Below are positions 9,798 to 47,487 of a stretch of 64,000 nucleotides of DNA, in pieces. Positions within the stretch are counted from its first letter, which is position 1. Each line of letters starts with the position of its first letter. The stretch is from an uncultured Coriobacteriaceae bacterium. GTDB taxonomy: Bacteria > Actinomycetota > Coriobacteriia > Coriobacteriales > Coriobacteriaceae. Location of the stretch: the NCBI GenBank assembly GCA_944319885.1, contig CALUFC010000001.1, forward strand, positions 1 to 64,000, written 5' to 3'. Below the pieces are notes generated by a model. The model had not been told where the DNA came from. It searched no databases and saw only the letters and a list, made by a program, of their open reading frames with translations. The position numbers and the translations under genes were made by a program.

Positions 9798-9937
9798 TGC
9801 ACGCTCCTAGGCTTCGCGGCTCCTTATCGTCTTCGATATCCCGGCCCTGGCGTGCGCGCGTGTTGTGCGCCCGCTCAGAGCCTTGTAGCATTGTGCCAGA
9901 ACGCTTGCGCACGAGTTGCACAGAAGGAAATCTTTGC

Positions 9938-38403: not shown

Positions 38404-38670
38404 TTACGCCTGCGCCTGTGTGTGGGCCGCCTCAAGCGCGCGGCAGAGCTGATCGGCGCACGAGGTGGGACGGGCACCGCAGGTGTTGCCATCGAGAATC
38501 GAGATTACCTGCTCGACCGGCATGCCTTTCACGAGCTTCGAAATCGCCTTGAGGTTGCCGTTGCAGCCGCCCACAAACGAGCAGCCTTCGATGACCTGGC
38601 CCGCGTCGTCGAGATCGACGTGGATGTTGCGCGAGCAGACCCCGTGCGGCGTGAAATCGATCGAAACCAT
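38404..38670 (-). CDS. TSCPD-domain protein (TIGR03905 type)
   Basis: An 88-aa protein built around a TSCPD domain: TPHGVCSRNIHVDLDD at residues 6-21, FVGGCNGNLKAISKLVKG at about 32-49 and the closing GNTCGARPTSCADQLCRAL. Conserved cysteines (Cys11, Cys36, Cys64, Cys70, Cys75 by eye) could bind a metal. The same domain occurs at the C-terminus of vitamin B12-dependent ribonucleotide reductases, but stand-alone copies have no established role. ATG 38670 has GGGGAGG upstream; an earlier in-frame ATG at 38691 has none. It precedes the Tat lipoprotein gene. Confidence 0.85.
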   Translation of the reverse strand: MVSIDFTPHGVCSRNIHVDLDDAGQVIEGCSFVGGCNGNLKAISKLVKGMPVEQVISILDGNTCGARPTSCADQLCRALEAAHTQAQA

Positions 38671-38779
38671 ATGTCCTCCCCTGCCGCGCATCGGCGCGGC
38701 CGATATGTCACGTTTGCTCTAGCCATTATCCCCGTTTGCACTGCGAACAGCGGGGCGCGCACACGATATACATGTAAAC

Positions 38780-38823
38780 GATGCCCCGGGCGGAGGCGTC
38801 CGCTCGGGGCATCGAGGTCGCTT
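38780..38823 (-). terminator. Terminator of the AOR operon
   Basis: GATGCCCCG (38780-38788) and CGGGGCATC (38815-38823) form the base of a stem of about 16 bp with one wobble; on the minus strand it is followed by GTTTACATG. It lies 29 bp after the cytochrome stop. Confidence 0.7.
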
Positions 38824-38851
38824 GTATAAGCGAGGATGAAGTGAGGTGGTC

Positions 38852-39520
38852 CTACTCGGACGCAGCCTCAAACAGGTCGGGGGTGGTCCAGCCGTCGGGC
38901 ACCGCGCCCTCCTTGCCGTAGCCAAGATCCTGGACGGTCCAGCCCTCGGGCACGCCGCCCTCGCCCTCCCAGGCGCCTACCTGGTGGCAGGTCGCGCAGG
39001 TGAAGACGCTCTGGTCGTGGAAGCGGTGGCAGGAGTTGCACTGCTGCACGCCATGGTAGTCGCTGTGCGGATCGAAGCTGAAGTCGGCCGTGGAGGACTC
39101 AGAAGCGCCCGGCATCACGCCGGCGCCCGCATGGCAGCCGCTCTGCAGGCAGAACTCGTTGGAGTAGGTCTCCTTGGCAAGCGGAGTCTCGTAGCCCCCG
39201 GAGAGCTGAGCCGAGATCTGGCTGCCCATCTGTGCGAGGGTCTGCTCGTGGCAGCCCAGGCAGTCGCCCTCGACAACGCCCTTGTGCGCATAGGCGAGCG
39301 ACTCGGTGTCGTTCATGTAGGAGTTATAGTACTTGCCCATGGTGTTGTGGCACATGGAATCGCAGTACTCGGGCGTGGCGCGCCATGCCCAACCGGCGAC
39401 GCCCAGCACCGTGACAACCACCACGGCGGCAATCACGATGGGGAGGCGCTTCGCCTTCCAATTCTTCTTCTTAGGAGCAGCCTCGGTGGTACCCGTGGTC
39501 TCCTTCTTCTCGTCAGCCAT
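38852..39520 (-). CDS. Membrane-anchored multihaem cytochrome c
   Basis: A 222-aa cytochrome with one N-terminal membrane helix (about residues 26-46, LPIVIAAVVVVTVLGVAGWAW) and a periplasm-like haem domain. Haem-binding motifs are CDSMCH (about 53), CLGCH (about 87), CNSCH (about 161) and CATCH (about 174) plus the unusual CX4CH motif CLQSGCH (about 124). This predicts four to five haems, as in NapC/NrfH-type quinol-linked cytochromes. The acidic C-terminal tail has two related blocks (GVPEGWTVQDLGYG and AVPDGWTTPDLF). ATG 39520 has GAGAGGAG upstream. Last gene of the ferredoxin-AOR-cytochrome operon; it likely passes electrons between the membrane quinone pool and the ferredoxin subunit. 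Confidence 0.88.
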   Translation of the reverse strand: MADEKKETTGTTEAAPKKKNWKAKRLPIVIAAVVVVTVLGVAGWAWRATPEYCDSMCHNTMGKYYNSYMNDTESLAYAHKGVVEGDCLGCHEQTLAQMGSQISAQLSGGYETPLAKETYSNEFCLQSGCHAGAGVMPGASESSTADFSFDPHSDYHGVQQCNSCHRFHDQSVFTCATCHQVGAWEGEGGVPEGWTVQDLGYGKEGAVPDGWTTPDLFEAASE

Positions 39521-39540
39521 TGCTATCTCCTCTCAGGCAA

Positions 39541-41796
39541 CTAGGCAAGCGCCGGGTTGTCGCCGCAGTAGTCGGCAAGGCAGCCAGCGTAGGTGCGGGT
39601 GCGATCGTCGAACGCGGCGCCGCCCTCGGTAAGGAGACCGAGCTCCTCGAGGTCGGAGGCAACGTCGTCGAGGCCGAGGTCCTCAAGGCACTCCTTGGTG
39701 GGGCAGCCCAGCTCCTCATCCCAGCCGAAGCGCTTGTAGAGCATGGTGAGGGCCGTCTGCCAGTCCTCTTTCTCCATCTTGTCGGTGCCGGCGGTGAAGG
39801 GCTCGATGTCCGGATCCTTGGTGAAGGGCCACTCGGTGATGGTGTCGTGGATGTTGCGGAAGTCGTTGCAACCCATGTTGCCATCAGCGTCGGTCATGCC
39901 GCGCGCGGTGTTAGCGCGCTGGAGGGTCATGACGCGCTCGGCGGCCTTGTAGAGGTCGTCGATCGTGATCTCCTGGCCGGTCACCGCGGTGTAGAACTGC
40001 GCCTCGAGGTCGAGGTCGCCGCGGTAGCTGCGCTCCTTGGCGGGCGCCATGGCCATGGGCCACACCCAGTTGCAGAGCGTCAGGCAGTCATGCAGGACGT
40101 CGGTCACGATGGACCACCAGCAGAACTCCGCCTTGTACTCGTTCATCGGCGTGTACTTCTTGGTGTCGTCGATCGCGGAGGCGTCGCCCCACATCTCGGC
40201 GGCCATCTCCTGCTTGAGCTCGAACGGCAGGCCGCAGCCCTGGAAGTTCACCGCGGAGTGAATCATGTCGTCGCGGTTGAAGACCATGTTGTAGAGCGCG
40301 CCCACCTGGCCGAAGCACTCGTGCGCATGGTGCACGGGCCAGCCGCGGTAGTTGATGAGGGTGGAGGCGGTGGTGTCGAACCACTCCATGTGGTTCCACT
40401 CCTTGCACCACACCATCGGGCCATGACCCAGCAGCGAGATGGGCTTGTTCTCGACGTCGTTGGAAGCGATGTCCACCAGGATCTTGATGAAGGAGGTGGG
40501 GTCGCCGTTGTTCATGATGGCGTCGAAGTTGTACTCGGCCATCTGCTCGGCCGGAACGTGCTCGGCGAGGATGCCGTTCGCGTAGGTCCAGGCGATATCG
40601 CGATAGAGCTGCGCGTAGTTGCACCACAGGCCAAGATCATCGACCGTAGCGGAGATGATCTGGTCGTAGAAGACCGCGGTGTCGGTGCTGATGTTGTCCT
40701 CGTTCTTGATGCCCTGCGCCTTCATGATGGGCTGCATGTACGTGGAGAACGGGAAGTTGGGCACGCAGGTGTTGCCCGAGGAAGCGTAGCCGGTGGCCTC
40801 GAGGACGCGCGGATCGCGGATCATCGAGTAACAGCGCACGGGGCAGCCGTGGCAGCCGGCCATCTTGACGGTGTACTTCTCGGCCTCGGGACCCATGTCC
40901 TTGGTGGACTTCATGCAGCGATAGCCCATGGTGTTGGGCTCGAAGGGCTTGGGCTCGCCGGTCTCGATGGGGCCGCCCTCGGCAGCTGCCCAGTAGAGAC
41001 CCTTCTTGGCGGTCCAACGCGAACCGGCGTCGTAGTACTCGGCCCAGGACTGCTGGGTGCTCGGCACGACATGGTTGTTGTTGGAGCCCAGAACCTCGGC
41101 GATCATGTAGTCGGAGAGGTCGGAGACCATCTGAGGATCGGCGACGTTCACGGCCTTGGTGCCCTTGACCACGACGGCCTTGCACTTCTTGGAGCCGAGC
41201 ACAGCACCCAGGCCAGCACCTGCAGAGTGGCTGCGGGTGTTGATGACGCATGCATAGGGAAGCAGGTTCTCGCCGGCAGGACCGATGGCGGCCACGCAGG
41301 CCTCGAGGCCGTGCTTCTGGCAGAGCGCCTCGGTGGTCTCTCGGGTGCCCTTGCCCCACACGGCGGAAGCGTCCTCGATCGAGATCTTATCGTCATCGAT
41401 GAGGATGTAGCACGGGGTCTCGGAAGCGCCCTCGATGATGAGGCCGTCGTGACCCGAGAACTTGAGCTGGGCGCCCAGGTTGCCGCCACAGTGCGCGTCG
41501 ACGATGAGGTAGTCCTTCGAGAAGGTGGACAGCGTCGCCCACGTGGAGCGGCCAGCCAGGGGCACGCCGGAAGCGGTGAGCGGGCCCACGGCGAGAACGG
41601 CCTTGTTCTCGGGAGCATCCCACGCGGTGCCAGCGGGCACCTCGTCGTACATGATCTTGTTGGCGAAGCCCATGCCGCCGATGTAGTCCTTCTGCATGGC
41701 CTCGTCGGACTCGACCGTGATCTCGCCGGTCGAGAGGTTGACACGGGCGATCTGGCCCATCCAACCGTAAGAACCGAAAGTGGCAGTATCAGCCAT
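39541..41796 (-). CDS. Aldehyde:ferredoxin oxidoreductase-family enzyme (YdhV-like)
   Basis: A 751-aa enzyme of the AOR family, which carries a tungsten or molybdenum bis-pterin and one [4Fe-4S] cluster. The N-terminal domain (YGWMGQIARVNLSTGEIT at about 10-27, then YIGGMGFANKIMYDE) and the pterin-binding block VGPLTASGVPLAGRS at about 71 are typical. The cluster ligands are CHGCPVRC at about residues 303-310 with a later Cys in the DCLTLCNW region at about 575. It is longer than archaeal AOR (about 605 aa). No signal peptide is present. ATG 41796 has AAGGAG upstream. Flanking ferredoxin and cytochrome genes point to a respiratory complex like E. coli YdhV with YdhY; the substrate is unknown. 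Confidence 0.9.
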   Translation of the reverse strand: MADTATFGSYGWMGQIARVNLSTGEITVESDEAMQKDYIGGMGFANKIMYDEVPAGTAWDAPENKAVLAVGPLTASGVPLAGRSTWATLSTFSKDYLIVDAHCGGNLGAQLKFSGHDGLIIEGASETPCYILIDDDKISIEDASAVWGKGTRETTEALCQKHGLEACVAAIGPAGENLLPYACVINTRSHSAGAGLGAVLGSKKCKAVVVKGTKAVNVADPQMVSDLSDYMIAEVLGSNNNHVVPSTQQSWAEYYDAGSRWTAKKGLYWAAAEGGPIETGEPKPFEPNTMGYRCMKSTKDMGPEAEKYTVKMAGCHGCPVRCYSMIRDPRVLEATGYASSGNTCVPNFPFSTYMQPIMKAQGIKNEDNISTDTAVFYDQIISATVDDLGLWCNYAQLYRDIAWTYANGILAEHVPAEQMAEYNFDAIMNNGDPTSFIKILVDIASNDVENKPISLLGHGPMVWCKEWNHMEWFDTTASTLINYRGWPVHHAHECFGQVGALYNMVFNRDDMIHSAVNFQGCGLPFELKQEMAAEMWGDASAIDDTKKYTPMNEYKAEFCWWSIVTDVLHDCLTLCNWVWPMAMAPAKERSYRGDLDLEAQFYTAVTGQEITIDDLYKAAERVMTLQRANTARGMTDADGNMGCNDFRNIHDTITEWPFTKDPDIEPFTAGTDKMEKEDWQTALTMLYKRFGWDEELGCPTKECLEDLGLDDVASDLEELGLLTEGGAAFDDRTRTYAGCLADYCGDNPALA

Positions 41797-41813
41797 TTAA
41801 GTTACTCCTTACC

Positions 41814-42536
41814 TTACGCGACGTGGCCGCCGCCGACGAAGTCCTGCGTCTCGCTCACCAGCGGGAACGTGGTCTCGAAGCGCGTCGGGCCGGAGGAATG
41901 GTTGACATCCTCCCACTCGATGAGCTCGATGGCTCCGTTGGGGCACTGCTCGACGCAACGACCGCAGGCAACGCACTTCGAGGACTTGCCGGTCACGGTG
42001 TTCACCACGGGCATGTTCCACGGGCACGCAGACACGCAGTTGCCGCAGCCGACGCACTTCTCGGCATCGACCACGCGCACGCCGTTGTCGTTGGTGTAGA
42101 TGGCACCGTGCGGGCATGCGGTCTGGCAGAGCGCCGTCTTGCACATGTGGCACGTGCGAACCTGCCACTCCTGCGAGTAGTAAGTGCCGTCGGCCGTGTC
42201 GAGGCCAGCACCGAAGTTGAAGCCGTCGCGCACGTGAATGCGGGCGGCAGCGGGCTGGGACACGCCGTCGTTGGTGAGCGTGCAGCTCATCTCGCAACGC
42301 TGGCAACCCGTGCAGCGGGCACGGTTCACCTTGAGCACGTGCGTGGGGCACGCATAGTAGTCAACCGCTCCGTTCGAGCTCGTCGGCGCTGCCGCCGCCG
42401 GCTCCGGGAGCAGGCCGAGAGCCACCATGCTCGCCACGAACGCCCCCGACACCTTCACAAACCCGCGACGGGTAAAGAAGGAGTTGAGGCGATCCGCGCC
42501 GGAGCCCACCTGCTCCAAGGCGGTGTTCTCTTTCAT
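41814..42536 (-). CDS. Tat-exported ferredoxin with four [4Fe-4S] clusters
   Basis: A 240-aa electron-transfer subunit. A twin-arginine signal (FFTRRGFVKVSGAFVASMVA at residues 20-39) ends near AAAAP. Cysteine groups CTGCQRCEMSC, CHMCKTALCQTACP, CVGCGNCVSACP and CVACGRCVEQCP give ligands for four cubane clusters, as in the DmsB/YdhY/NrfC type. ATG 42536 has GGGGAGGGA upstream, and an upstream leader hairpin (GGCGGTC 42560-42566, GACCGCC 42571-42577). It begins the operon with the AOR and the cytochrome, and probably carries the signal-less AOR subunit across the membrane by hitchhiking; this is inference. Confidence 0.92.
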   Translation of the reverse strand: MKENTALEQVGSGADRLNSFFTRRGFVKVSGAFVASMVALGLLPEPAAAAPTSSNGAVDYYACPTHVLKVNRARCTGCQRCEMSCTLTNDGVSQPAAARIHVRDGFNFGAGLDTADGTYYSQEWQVRTCHMCKTALCQTACPHGAIYTNDNGVRVVDAEKCVGCGNCVSACPWNMPVVNTVTGKSSKCVACGRCVEQCPNGAIELIEWEDVNHSSGPTRFETTFPLVSETQDFVGGGHVA

Positions 42537-42559
42537 AGTTCCCTCCCCTTACATCGTAC

Positions 42560-42577
42560 GGCGGTCCCGTGACCGCC
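42560..42577 (-). promoter_or_regulatory. Hairpin in the leader of the AOR operon
   Basis: GGCGGTC and GACCGCC form a 7-bp stem with a 4-nt loop about 24-41 nt before the ferredoxin start codon. It leaves the ribosome site free. Confidence 0.4.
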
Positions 42578-42632
42578 GCTTACTTGGTACGACAACTGCG
42601 CGGGCGATTCGCGCAATCTGCCGAGTACCATT

Positions 42633-42721
42633 GTCACCTTTTTTATTCCTGACACCTCACCTGCTTCTGGGTAATTTCTTCATACATGCCGCTACCTGCG
42701 AACATGCTTGTCACCTGTTTT
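42633..42721 (-). promoter_or_regulatory. Three direct repeats of an AGGTGA-type motif upstream of the AOR operon
   Basis: Read on the minus strand (direction of transcription): AAAACAGGTGAC (42710-42721), GAAGCAGGTGAG (42656-42667) and AAAAAAGGTGAC (42633-42644). All have the same orientation. The candidate -10 GACAAT (minus strand) overlaps the last copy, and the second covers the place where a -35 would be; no good -35 is seen, as in an activator-dependent promoter. The first copy is identical to a site upstream of the LuxR-type regulator. Confidence 0.5.
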
Positions 42722-42795
42722 GGGGTACCCACGTGTACGCGGCGTTTTGAGACGCGCGAGCGCCGCAAAACGAATGCGGAATCCATAACCCCGCA

Positions 42796-43389
42796 CTAAC
42801 CCTCAAGCTCGCCGCGCTCCTTGAGCTCCTGCTCCACGCGATCATCGCGCAGCGAGCAGTTCTCGGTGATCATGCACGGGACGCTGAGCTTCTGGCAGGG
42901 CAGAAACGCATCGAGATCGGCAATGGAGAAGCCCTTCTGCTTGAGGCAGTAGTTACCCACCAACGCGCGAATGGCCTCGAGTCCGAAGATATAGGTGTAC
43001 GCACGGCTCTCGGGCAGCTCGCCGGTAAGCGCGGTGATATCCTCGCGGGTGATATCGAGCGCCTCGGTGATGGTCTTGCCGCGCAGCAGCGTGGCGATTG
43101 CCGTAGCGCATGCGATGGCGGCAAGGCACCCATGGCTTCGGAAACCGACCTCGACGAAGCGATCATCCGCTGCATCGACAACCGCAAAGAGCTGCATCTG
43201 CACCGTGCCGCGCTTCTCCTTGCCCACGCTGCAGAAGGCGTTGGCGCCATCGGGCACTCCGCCGTTCACGGCGTCGGCAATGAGGTCGATCGCCTGCTTG
43301 GGATATTCCGAGATGGGCGCATCGCGCTCGATCTGGTACATGTCGGGCGTCCGCAGAAACGGCGCGTCCTCGGTAAGGTGTCTGGGCAT
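42796..43389 (-). CDS. NifU-like (IscU-fold) protein
   Basis: A 197-aa protein with a NifU/IscU N-terminal-like core: GFRSHGCLAAIACATAIATLLRG at about residues 83-105 (conserved GCLAAIA), then KTITEALDITREDITALTGELPESR. IscU proteins have three conserved cysteines for assembling a cluster; here the first two positions (Cys52 and Cys89) and a later CLKQKG/CQK region supply candidates, plus a C-terminal tail with CMITENC. It may build or deliver Fe-S clusters for the neighbouring multi-cluster enzyme. Family members also mature selenium- or xanthine-type enzymes. ATG 43389 has AAGGAG upstream. It lies 34 bp after the preceding gene on the same strand. Confidence 0.75.
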   Translation of the reverse strand: MPRHLTEDAPFLRTPDMYQIERDAPISEYPKQAIDLIADAVNGGVPDGANAFCSVGKEKRGTVQMQLFAVVDAADDRFVEVGFRSHGCLAAIACATAIATLLRGKTITEALDITREDITALTGELPESRAYTYIFGLEAIRALVGNYCLKQKGFSIADLDAFLPCQKLSVPCMITENCSLRDDRVEQELKERGELEG

Positions 43390-43423
43390 AGCTGCTCCTT
43401 CTTCGCGATTCGGGTCAGGTGGC

Positions 43424-44203
43424 TTATGGGTTCATGCCCCGCTCGATACCGTACCACTGCGCCAGCGAGGCCGCCTGCGCCTCGCTGAGATACAGGTCGG
43501 AGTAGAAGTACGGCGTGCCGAACGAGGTTGCGGTCTGCTTGATGTCGCCAAACGAGCCGCTCGCGACAACTTCCTCGAACACCTTGCGCGTCTTGGAGCG
43601 CGACCAGAGATACGGCGGGTTCATGAACGTATCGATTTCAACCGGCCGCGGATAGGTGCTCGATTCTGTGCGCACCACATCAACGAAGGTAGCCATGTCG
43701 TTATCCTCGGCGGTGAGATACAGCGCGCGGGCGAAACTGTGCGAGAGCAGGGCCACCGAGTATAGGTAGATGCCTTTCTTGCCAAACATGAACGCGATGT
43801 CGTGCACATCGAGGTCGGGCAGCTCGTCGGTGTCGCCCAGCTCGACGCCCTCGAGTTCGACCTCAAGGGGTTTCGGGGCAGCCACACGCCCCATCACGGG
43901 CTTCGCCTCAGCATGCTCGTGATCTTGGATGTAGGTCATGAGCTGCTCGGTGAACGTCTTGGCATCCATGCCCTCCGGCGCAAACGCGCGCTTCTTCCAC
44001 CGCGCCGTCGTGGTGAGCTTGCCCTCATAGGAGCGCTGACGCACATCGGTCAGCGCCGCATCGGCCGCACGGATGAACGCGTTGCGCGCCTGTATTGCCG
44101 CGAGCTCCTCTTCGGTTGGCGCGGCGTCCGCGCCCCCATCGCTCGCCGGCGTGGCACCGGCATCAACCTCGTCGTGCGCATGCTGGGCGTCTGTATCTTG
44201 CAT
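43424..44203 (-). CDS. Unknown accessory protein of the AOR cluster (possibly YdhW-like)
   Basis: A 259-aa soluble protein with no signal or membrane helix. The N-terminal 35 residues are acidic and low-complexity; the rest is alpha-helical in appearance, with a possible LARWKKRAF-type basic patch (TTARWKKRAF at about 65) and a conserved-looking C-terminal region (HDIAFMFGKKGIYLYSV at about 135, FMNPPYLWSRSKTRKVFEEV at about 195, TPYFYSDLYLSEAQ). Position beside an AOR-family gene recalls E. coli ydhW in the ydhYVWXUT operon, or an assembly chaperone, but I could not test either. ATG 44203 has GAGGGGGAG upstream. First gene of the minus-strand unit with the NifU-like gene; divergent from the LuxR-type regulator. 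Confidence 0.6.
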   Translation of the reverse strand: MQDTDAQHAHDEVDAGATPASDGGADAAPTEEELAAIQARNAFIRAADAALTDVRQRSYEGKLTTTARWKKRAFAPEGMDAKTFTEQLMTYIQDHEHAEAKPVMGRVAAPKPLEVELEGVELGDTDELPDLDVHDIAFMFGKKGIYLYSVALLSHSFARALYLTAEDNDMATFVDVVRTESSTYPRPVEIDTFMNPPYLWSRSKTRKVFEEVVASGSFGDIKQTATSFGTPYFYSDLYLSEAQAASLAQWYGIERGMNP

Positions 44204-44261
44204 CGCTCCCCCTCGCGGTCTACCTCCTTGCGAAACCTAGTGTAGTACAAGGTATACTTCT

Positions 44262-44294
44262 ATTCACCTTATGCAGTAACCTAAAACAGGTGAC
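44262..44294. promoter_or_regulatory. Shared regulatory site between the accessory gene and the LuxR-type regulator
   Basis: AAAACAGGTGAC at 44283-44294 is identical over 12 bp to the site at 42710-42721. A second, opposite AAGGTGAAT-type half-site lies at 44262-44270. On the minus strand, TTACTG (44274-44279) and TATACC (about 44251-44256) form a candidate promoter for the accessory gene, with the motif just upstream of its -35. On the plus strand, TATACT (44253-44258) is a candidate -10 for the regulator. Confidence 0.5.
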
Positions 44295-44328
44295 CCGCAT
44301 CCATCTCGACATTCGAGGAGATAACGGC

Positions 44329-45936
44329 ATGGCAGAAGAAGCTCGCGATAACGCGCCGGGCATGCGCTCGCTCGTCCCGCCGGTGCTCGGGCTCGCGCTC
44401 TCCTCTGCCTGTCTGAGCCTCACGCTGTTCAATGGCCATCGCGGCGGTGCCTCGCCCTCGCTCGACTTCATTCCCATGGTGCTCAGCTGTGCGATCATCG
44501 TCCTGCTCGGCGCCCGCGCCCTGCGCGCAGAGCGTCTTCCCAAGCCGCGCGTGGCGCTCCTCACGTTTCTCTCGATCCATGTTGCCGGCATCGCCGCACT
44601 CGTACTCATGCTCATCGGCATCATGGGGGCGCAGCCGCCCGGCATCATCTTCTCGCTGCTCGAGGGCATCGTTGCCGCCGGCAATGCGTCGCTTGCATGC
44701 TTCTGGCTTCGCAAGCTCCGCGGAACAGCGGCGCGCGAGGTCGCTCTCGTAGCGCTCTGCGCGGCAGCATGCTCGGAAATCGCCGTCTTTGTCTTCGGCT
44801 GGACGGACACCGCGGCCTACGGCGCCGCCTTTGTGTTTGCGTTTATTCAATTCGCCGCCGTGAAGGGGTCACGCGCCATGCAGGTGCCCAGCGACTTTTA
44901 CCCTGCCGCCTCGGAAGCGTACTTTGGAACGGGCGAGATGCGCTTCTCGAGCCGCGGGTACCTCGCCGCCGCCGCGCTCGGCATCTGCTTCATGGCGGTG
45001 CCGCTCGGCCTGGGCATCGCCGTGCCCCTCGGTGAAGACCCCGCTACCAGCGCGCCGTTCATCAACTTCGCCGAGCGCTGCCTGACGCTGATCATCGTCG
45101 TCGCGCTTGCCGGTCTCGGCATACGCCGCGTGCAAAAGACAACCGGACACGCGCTCACCACCTTGGTGTGGCTCGTCATGGAGCTGCTCGTTTCATGCGC
45201 CATGATCTTGATCGCCATCGGTGGCGGCGGCGCGCTCGCCGGCCGTGCGGCCACACTCGCCACCTCGCTCATTTTGCAGGCATTCGCCTGGTATCTCTCG
45301 GTTGCGTTTGTAAGCTTTGGAACCCGCGATCCGTATTTCTACACGGCAGTGGTCTGGGTGGCACTCTGCCTGCTCGAGGCGGCGGGCGGCGCGTTCGGCA
45401 TAGCGCTTGCGGCGATTGCCCCCCATAACACCGCGCTCCTGGTAGCCATCATGGGCTTTTGCGTGCTCGCCAGCGCCCAGGTGGTGTTCACGCAGCTGCT
45501 ACGCGACCCATCGCGCCAGGCGGGCGCTGTGGCATATGGAAACGTGAACACGGGAGCCGTGCGCACGGAGAAGGCAGGCAGCGCAGCTGAGCCCGCCAGC
45601 ACTCCGAGCGAACAGGAACGTAGCGCGGAAAAGGACGCCCTGCCGCTCATGAGCATGATGGGCGTGCCACCGGAGGGACAAAGCAGCCTTCCCAGCGGCG
45701 CCGCCAACGTACACATTGCCACCTCGGTCATCGCGCTGGGCCAGCAGTTCGGCCTTACCGGGCGCGAGATCGAGGTGCTCACGCTCTACGCCCTCGGGCA
45801 CACGCAGGCGCGCGTGAGCGAAGAGCTCCAGCTCTCGCAAAACACGGTGCACACGCACATCAAGCGCATCTATGACAAGACCAATCTCCATTCGCGCCAG
45901 GAGATTCTCGACTATCTCGCCGAATACGGCGCCTGA
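44329..45936 (+). CDS. Membrane LuxR-type transcriptional regulator
   Basis: A 535-aa protein. The first 400 residues form about 12 hydrophobic helices (for example LVPPVLGLALSSACLSLTLF, ALLTFLSIHVAGIAALVLML and LLVAIMGFCVLASAQVVF), a linker of about 70 residues is low-complexity, and the C-terminus is a LuxR/GerE HTH (LTGREIEVLTLYALGHTQ, then LQLSQNTVHTHIKRIYDKTN at about 498-517). This N-terminal membrane plus C-terminal LuxR plan is abundant in Coriobacteriia, often beside respiratory oxidoreductases. ATG 44329 has GAGGAG upstream. It is divergent from the accessory gene and shares a motif with the AOR operon promoter, so it is the likely local regulator. The membrane part may sense a small molecule. 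Confidence 0.88.
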   Translation: MAEEARDNAPGMRSLVPPVLGLALSSACLSLTLFNGHRGGASPSLDFIPMVLSCAIIVLLGARALRAERLPKPRVALLTFLSIHVAGIAALVLMLIGIMGAQPPGIIFSLLEGIVAAGNASLACFWLRKLRGTAAREVALVALCAAACSEIAVFVFGWTDTAAYGAAFVFAFIQFAAVKGSRAMQVPSDFYPAASEAYFGTGEMRFSSRGYLAAAALGICFMAVPLGLGIAVPLGEDPATSAPFINFAERCLTLIIVVALAGLGIRRVQKTTGHALTTLVWLVMELLVSCAMILIAIGGGGALAGRAATLATSLILQAFAWYLSVAFVSFGTRDPYFYTAVVWVALCLLEAAGGAFGIALAAIAPHNTALLVAIMGFCVLASAQVVFTQLLRDPSRQAGAVAYGNVNTGAVRTEKAGSAAEPASTPSEQERSAEKDALPLMSMMGVPPEGQSSLPSGAANVHIATSVIALGQQFGLTGREIEVLTLYALGHTQARVSEELQLSQNTVHTHIKRIYDKTNLHSRQEILDYLAEYGA

Positions 45937-46010
45937 CCGAACGCAGAGCCTCGAATAGACGCCCCGCGGCGCCGCTTCCCACCCGTCTCGCTCCACACCA
46001 CACGCCGTTT

Positions 46011-46069
46011 TATGCCGAATTGACCTCTAAGAGCCTCAAAACGAGGTCCTTAGAGGTCAATTCGGCATA
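46011..46069. repeat. Perfect 21-bp inverted repeat between convergent genes
   Basis: 46011-46031 (beginning TATGCCGAATTGACC) and 46049-46069 are exact complements; the 17-nt loop contains a nested CCTC/GAGG stem. It lies 74 bp after the LuxR-type stop and 71 bp after the purB stop. It may be a bidirectional terminator, although no T-run is present, or a palindromic repeat family. Confidence 0.7.
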
Positions 46070-46140
46070 TTCTACGGTTGGGCGCCGCCGCTCCGCGCAG
46101 CAAGCGGGCGCAGAACGGCGGCGGGACGGCGCGGGATGCC

Positions 46141-47487
46141 CTACGCGAAGTCGAGCTCCTCCAAGCGATCGAAAACGCGATCGATGCGCGTGAGGAAATC
46201 CCACGGATCGAAGATCTTGTCGAGCTCCTCGGCGCTCACCGTGCAGCGCGGGTCGGCTTCGAGCTTCTCGCGGAACGTGGTACCGGCCTGGCACTGCTGC
46301 ACCTCGCGCCAGGTGGCCATGGCGTTCTCCTGCACGATGGCGTAGGCCTCCTCGCGCGTGATGCCCGTCTCCACGAGAGCGAGCAGCACCTTGGACGAGA
46401 AGATGAGGCCGCGCGTCTTGTTGAGGTTGGCCTTCATCTGCTCGGGATAGAGGATGAGGCCATCGACCACGCGAATGAGACATTGGAACATATGGTCGAG
46501 CGCGATGAAGCTGTCGGCCTGCGCCACGCGCTCGGCGGAGCTGTGGGAGATGTCGCGCTCGTGCCACAGCGCCACGTTGTCGAAGGCGACCTGCGCGTTG
46601 GCCTTGACCACGCGGGAGAGGCCGCAGACCTTCTCCATGGTGATGGGGTTGCGCTTGTGCGGCATAGCGCTCGAACCCTTTTGCCCCTTCTTGAAGGGCT
46701 CCTCGGCCTCGAGCGTATCGGTCTTCTGGAGGTTGCGAATCTCGGTCGCGATGCGCTCGCAGGTAGCGGCCGTCGTGGCAAGCACACCGGCGAGATAGGC
46801 GTGGTGGTCGCGGGAGATAACCTGCGTGGACAGCGGATCGTGCACAAGCCCCAGGTGCTCGCAGACGTACTCCTCCACCTCGGGATCGATGGAGCTGTAG
46901 GTGCCCACCGCGCCCGAGATGGCACCGAAGGCAACGTTGGCGCGTGCATCGATCATGCGGTCGAGATCGCGCTTGAGCTCCCACGCCCAGCTGCCAAACT
47001 TCATACCGAACGTCATGGGCTCGGCATGGATGCCGTGCGTGCGACCGGCGCAAAGCGTCTCGCGCTCCTCGAACGCGCGGCGCTTGCAGATGGCGCCGAG
47101 CCTGCGCACATCCTCGATGATGAGATCGCAGGCCTGCACGAGCTGGTAGCAGAGCGCTGTATCACCCAGGTCGGAGCTCGTCATACCAAAGTGAACCCAG
47201 CGACTGGGCTTGGGCTCGCCTGCAGGCACCTCGGCATCGATATATTCGCCCATGTTGGTAAGGAAGGCGATGACATCGTGGTTGGTGACGGCCTCGATGG
47301 CGTCGACCTCATCCTTGTTGAACGCGGCGTGCTCGCGAATCCAAGCCGCCTCCTCGCGCGTGATGCCGATCTTGCCCAGCTCTGCCTGCGCCTCGCACGC
47401 GAGCACCTCGATCTCCTGCCAGATGGCGTACTTGTTTTCCAGCGAGAAGATATGCCCCATCTCAGGACGGGTGTAGCGATCGATCAT
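46141..47487 (-). CDS. purB: Adenylosuccinate lyase
   Basis: A 448-aa homotetrameric lyase that cleaves SAICAR and adenylosuccinate in purine biosynthesis. The fumarase/aspartase superfamily motif KGSSAMPHKRNPITMEKVCG is at about residues 268-287. RYTRPEMGHIFS at 4-15, TSSDLGDTALCYQL at about 105, GRTHGIHAEPMTFG at about 147 and RDHHAYLAGVLA are the other substrate-site blocks. Length is normal (about 430-475 aa). ATG 47487 has AAAGGAG upstream. It is convergent with the LuxR-type gene and follows the DUF4013 gene by 118 bp on the same strand. Confidence 0.95.
   Translation of the reverse strand: MIDRYTRPEMGHIFSLENKYAIWQEIEVLACEAQAELGKIGITREEAAWIREHAAFNKDEVDAIEAVTNHDVIAFLTNMGEYIDAEVPAGEPKPSRWVHFGMTSSDLGDTALCYQLVQACDLIIEDVRRLGAICKRRAFEERETLCAGRTHGIHAEPMTFGMKFGSWAWELKRDLDRMIDARANVAFGAISGAVGTYSSIDPEVEEYVCEHLGLVHDPLSTQVISRDHHAYLAGVLATTAATCERIATEIRNLQKTDTLEAEEPFKKGQKGSSAMPHKRNPITMEKVCGLSRVVKANAQVAFDNVALWHERDISHSSAERVAQADSFIALDHMFQCLIRVVDGLILYPEQMKANLNKTRGLIFSSKVLLALVETGITREEAYAIVQENAMATWREVQQCQAGTTFREKLEADPRCTVSAEELDKIFDPWDFLTRIDRVFDRLEELDFA

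Follow-up and report, generated by a model that had tools for sequence, protein, structure and literature searches.

A conserved 17-bp dyad as the probable operator of a membrane LuxR-type regulator at a YdhV-type oxidoreductase cluster in Coriobacteriaceae

Results

Organization of the locus

The window (the whole 64-kb stretch of DNA that was analyzed) contains a gene cluster built around a YdhV-type aldehyde ferredoxin oxidoreductase (AOR) homologue of the class V WOR type (39541..41796, minus strand; NF007354, 958.7 bits against a cut-off of 868). On the same strand are encoded a ydhW-like gene, called the accessory gene in an earlier sequence-only reading of this DNA (43424..44203; NF007411, E = 3.3e-31, below the family cut-off); a NifU_N-domain protein (42796..43389; PF01592); a ydhY-like Tat-type ferredoxin (41814..42536; NF007382, E = 7e-51, below the family cut-off); and a Cgr1/NrfH-like multihaem cytochrome c (38852..39520). 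A gap of 259 bp separates the NifU_N gene from the ydhY-like gene. Divergent from ydhW lies the gene for a LuxR-type regulator (44329..45936, plus strand), with a C-terminal LuxR/GerE HTH at residues 476–529 (PF00196, E = 1.9e-13) and 11 hydropathy peaks within residues 15–387, which suggests about 11–12 TM helices. An Rfam search of positions 38500–46500 gave only two sub-threshold matches, which we judged to be chance.

The repeated motif and its underlying unit

The sequence-only reading had reported a 12-mer, AAAACAGGTGAC, repeated in the two control regions of this cluster, and both exact copies were found, at 42710–42721 (minus strand) and 44283–44294 (plus strand), 1.6 kb apart. A pattern search of the whole genome (2.02 Mb in 29 contigs) returned the exact word at these two places only; the motif is not scattered, and the exact word is confined to the two control regions. 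The two weaker copies described earlier were likewise recovered, one at 42633–42644 (minus strand) with one mismatch, and one at 42656–42667, which reads GAAGCAGGTGAG on the minus strand and has three mismatches to the 12-mer. Elsewhere in the genome there are only three more one-mismatch copies, and about 3 kb of sequence to each side of them contained no dyad with up to one mismatch. Judged from the window alone the signal is modest, with four matches at up to two mismatches where shuffles averaged 1.44; four of 100 shuffles reached four matches.

Comparison of intergenic sequences shows that the true unit is a 17-bp dyad (inverted repeat), the 12-mer being its spacer plus its right half. 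In the window the dyad has the form T[A/C][A/C]CC(T)-N5-AGGTGA, and across relatives T[C/A][A/C]CCT-N5-AGG[T/G][G/T]A, with TCACCTgttttAGGTGA, TCACCTcaaacAGGTGA and TACCCTcttgcAGGGTA as examples among the latter. The left halves of the window dyads are less regular (TACCCC, TACCCA and TAACCT), which explains why only the right half had been noticed earlier. The dyad itself, the paired-site layout and the probable autoregulation had been missed. The pattern TMMCCNNNNNNAGGTGA, in which the right half is fixed, matches the genome exactly three times, at 42657–42673, 42711–42727 and 44277–44293, and has no match in the whole genome when read backwards. Since about four matches would be expected by chance (an estimate from base composition), the telling point is not their number but the location of all three in the two control regions.

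The ydhY promoter

Two of the dyads lie upstream of ydhY. Reckoned from a predicted transcription start near 42623, candidate operator dyad 1 (TACCCC-AAAAC-AGGTGA; 42711..42727, minus strand) is centered at about −96, and candidate operator dyad 2 (TACCCA-GAAGC-AGGTGA; 42657..42673, minus strand) at about −42. Dyad 1 is conserved in 25 of the 26 syntenic clusters, and dyad 2 is found in 20 of 20 non-redundant dyad-pair promoters. In these 20 promoters the distance between the dyads is 54 bp (n = 10), 55 bp (n = 6), 56 bp (n = 2), 57 bp (n = 1) or 67 bp (n = 1). A putative −10 of ydhY, GACAAT (42630..42635, minus strand), holds its position after dyad 2 as [GC]A[CGT]AAT: the −10-like hexamer follows dyad 2 at 21 bp (22 bp in three genomes) and is missing there in one promoter. 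A further conserved element, an AAAT block, directly precedes dyad 2. Across the aligned promoters there is no conserved −35.

In the sequence-only reading, one copy was placed over the position of the −35, which itself was said to look poor. This holds for the copy at 42657–42673; the copy at 42633 overlaps the −10 and consists of the half-site AGGTGA only (42634..42639, minus strand). This third copy is restricted to some members of the window's genus, was rejected as a dyad, and may be partly coincidental. The arrangement at ydhY, with dyad 2 at −42, a conserved −10 and no −35, has the appearance of a class II activator-dependent promoter.

The ydhY leader (42537–42625, minus strand) has a feature of its own: immediately ahead of the ribosome site it folds into two hairpins in most of the genomes examined, whether or not luxR is present. 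A consensus fold of the whole leader alignment retains the first hairpin only, and no Rfam match was obtained.

The ydhW/luxR control region

The third candidate operator dyad, TAACCT-AAAAC-AGGTGA on the plus strand (44277..44293), is located between ydhW and luxR. A dyad occupies this region in 22 of the 26 syntenic clusters and is degraded beyond two mismatches in four. The region also contains a divergent core, AGTGTAGTACAAGGTATACT (plus strand, 44239..44258), which is near-invariant in 22 of the 26 clusters; in the ydhW direction the core, AGTATACCTTGTACTACACT, comes after the dyad, again in 22 of 26 and not in all the dyad-bearing genomes, and four genomes of another genus carry a different core. 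We interpret the core as a pair of −10 elements that face each other, with TACACT serving ydhW (minus strand) and TATACT serving luxR (plus strand); the predicted transcription starts are near 44232 for ydhW and near 44265 for luxR.

In most relatives, 5 bp separate the end of the dyad from the core (13 bp from TTGTA), which would center the dyad near −40 of ydhW and over the luxR start. Only in the window and its closest relative is the dyad displaced, by 12–13 bp farther from the core, and a single half-site AGGTGA (44264..44269, minus strand) is left behind at the position that the dyad's right half holds in relatives. The earlier placement of the 44283 copy just upstream of a candidate −35 of ydhW needs qualification in this respect: in the window the dyad lies 13 bp farther from the ydhW core promoter than in most relatives, which have it at the −35 position itself. 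This arrangement can plausibly be read as activation of ydhW together with autoregulation of luxR.

Conservation and co-occurrence with luxR

We compared 67 Coriobacteriaceae genomes, in which luxR was identified by protein search. The gene is present in 26 of them, in every case divergent from ydhW-nifU and syntenic with it. Alignment of the orthologous promoters, a comparison that the sequence-only reading had proposed, places a dyad pair in front of ydhY in 25 of the 26 luxR genomes; dinucleotide shuffles of the same ydhY promoters gave no dyad pair in 40 rounds. Mean information content is approximately 1.6–1.7 bits in the half-sites versus 0.3–0.45 outside them.

The dyads are specific to the cluster and co-occur with the regulator. 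Using the strict pattern TMMCCTNNNNNAGGKKA, and taking "near" as within 6 kb of luxR or ydhY, we counted 100 dyads per Mb near these genes versus 0.24 per Mb in the remainder of those genomes. At least one strict dyad is present in 22 of the 26 luxR genomes versus 12 of the 41 others (p = 1e-5). Four genomes of another genus have the ydhY-AOR-cytochrome operon away from luxR, as an unlinked target, and in these both dyads are kept at the usual place upstream of ydhY.

Among these LuxR proteins the HTH is 79–93% identical versus 34–44% for the TM domain, the closest relative excepted (HTH 100% and TM domain 89%). A conserved HTH together with a divergent TM domain agrees with a DNA site that stays fixed while the sensor changes. 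Divergence of the TM sensor to 34–44%, while the enzyme (75–97%) and the HTH hold, is also an observation in its own right, of unusually fast sensor evolution.

In Gordonibacter and Berryella, whose LuxR proteins are about 30% identical, one-mismatch dyads of the same geometry stand before the AOR gene, and in Gordonibacter one stands before luxR as well. The Eggerthellaceae near-dyads lie at 9802, 9850 and 14155 in genome L083 and at 9825 and 9873 in L082; the pair at the AOR gene is 48 bp apart. We also tried the 6-5-6 inverted-repeat geometry as a general feature by a crude test upstream of 40 paralogous Eggerthellaceae LuxR genes, which gave 25 perfect repeats versus about 20 in shuffled sequence, and in which longer spacers rose more than the 5-bp spacer. 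As the 6-5-6 geometry was not enriched at these 40 genes, the test gives no evidence that it is general, and the candidate was rejected.

Clusters without luxR

Four genomes have the ydhW-nifU-ydhY-AOR-cytochrome cluster but no luxR orthologue anywhere: L070, which is C. stercoris, L075, which is C. intestinalis, and the MAGs L072 and L078. In these the dyad is absent in front of ydhY. Another perfect inverted repeat, ATTATTCT-N6-AGAATAAT, is located upstream of ydhY instead (L070 9098-9119; L072 4390-4411; L075 9098-9119; L078 9092-9113), and the −10 region and the leader are the same as in the luxR-bearing promoters. Regulator and operator have apparently been exchanged together in these relatives, which would make them a natural example of such a joint exchange.

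Discussion

Proposed regulation

Taken together, we consider it very probable that the motif belongs to the operator of the divergent membrane LuxR, which would activate both operons and autoregulate its own gene. A dimer of the C-terminal HTH would bind the 17-bp dyad, T[A/C][A/C]CC(T)-N5-(A)GG[T/G][G/T]A; the two dyads upstream of ydhY, 54 bp or about five helical turns apart, would activate the ydhY-AOR-cytochrome operon; and the dyad between ydhW and luxR would activate ydhW-nifU. Because this third dyad overlies the predicted luxR start region, LuxR probably autoregulates luxR. The earlier proposal that the divergent LuxR-type protein binds as an activator gains support from the comparison, in which the dyads track luxR and follow the unlinked AOR operon.

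We evaluated whether the dyads could instead be bound by another, unlinked regulator that controls the cluster, for example one that senses Mo/W, redox state or anaerobiosis. Global regulators control many operons for Mo/W enzymes, the E. coli ydh genes turn up in the FNR and NarL literature, and binding by LuxR is here deduced from comparative analysis. However, the four genomes that have the cluster and no luxR anywhere also lack the dyads, one dyad is within the promoter region of luxR itself, and the density of dyads at the cluster is about 400 times that in the rest of the same genomes, unlike what a global regulator would give; we regard an unlinked regulator as improbable.

It is also unlikely that LuxR binds the dyads mainly as a repressor and that a ligand relieves repression. 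Although repression of luxR is plausible, as the dyad of the divergent region overlies the putative luxR start, the ydhY dyad at −42, followed by a conserved −10 and lacking a conserved −35, is the layout of an activator-dependent promoter, and the relatives that have been tested are activators (PMC9734109). Finally, a chance repeat without function has a negligible probability: a two-copy match in one 64-kb window is weak alone, but the exact 12-mer is found nowhere else in the genome, and conservation of the dyad pair in 25 of 26 relatives versus none in shuffles already contradicts chance.

For activation by the divergent membrane LuxR we lean on the analogy with DadR, HcdR and CadR, and by the same analogy the signal sensed by the TM domain is presumably a small molecule, which may be the substrate of the AOR. 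Being short and readable from sequence, the dyad lends itself to regulon prediction and to the building of reporters. A dyad-driven reporter combined with the window LuxR could reveal the inducer, and with it, possibly, the substrate of YdhV and class V WOR.

Comparison with known systems

The membrane LuxR regulators of Coriobacteriia, of which there are dozens, are linked to the metabolism of drugs, diet and hormones. By its HTH, its TM helices and its location next to Mo-/flavin-enzyme genes, the window LuxR fits the 10–12-TM LuxR family of Coriobacteriia, to which DadR, HcdR and CadR belong. DadR, HcdR and CadR of E. lenta are catechol dehydroxylase regulators and genetically proven activators of adjacent Mo enzymes (Dong et al. 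2022, PMC9734109), and the result obtained there with FLAG-DadR suggests autoregulation.

The site resembles that of NarL/NarP, whose heptamer is TACYYMT (PMC4886647), in that the half-site TACCC of the window is similar to TACYY, as expected for a NarL/LuxR-type HTH. It differs in being a dyad of 6-5-6 geometry (or, equivalently, 7-3-7) whose halves read TCACCT or TACCCT, and in having a regulator without a receiver domain. TACYYMT heptamers do not occur in the dyads: the halves, spaced by 5 bp, are of the form TCACCT or TACCCN and lack the final T.

With respect to the enzyme, the cluster shares homologues of YdhV, YdhY and YdhW, the three on which the comparison was made, with the E. coli ydhYVWXUT operon and class V WOR (PMC13328260), and adds a linked NifU-domain protein, a Cgr1-like cytochrome and the membrane LuxR regulator. 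Class V WOR, including YdhV, has no known physiological role (PMC13328260).

In the literature searched, including the accessible part of PMC9734109, we found no published operator for the 10–12-TM LuxR family. With about even confidence, we suggest that the dyads represent the first operator and promoter architecture defined for this large membrane LuxR family of gut Coriobacteriia, with paired dyads at fixed spacing and a site that is kept as the sensor diverges, and that the sensor responds to the substrate of class V WOR (YdhV). The window LuxR is like DadR, HcdR and CadR in its polytopic N-terminal membrane domain, its C-terminal LuxR HTH and its position beside a Mo-enzyme operon, here a YdhV-type AOR cluster that is syntenic in relatives; it differs from them in that it would control a YdhV-type AOR in Coriobacteriaceae, through an operator defined by comparison.
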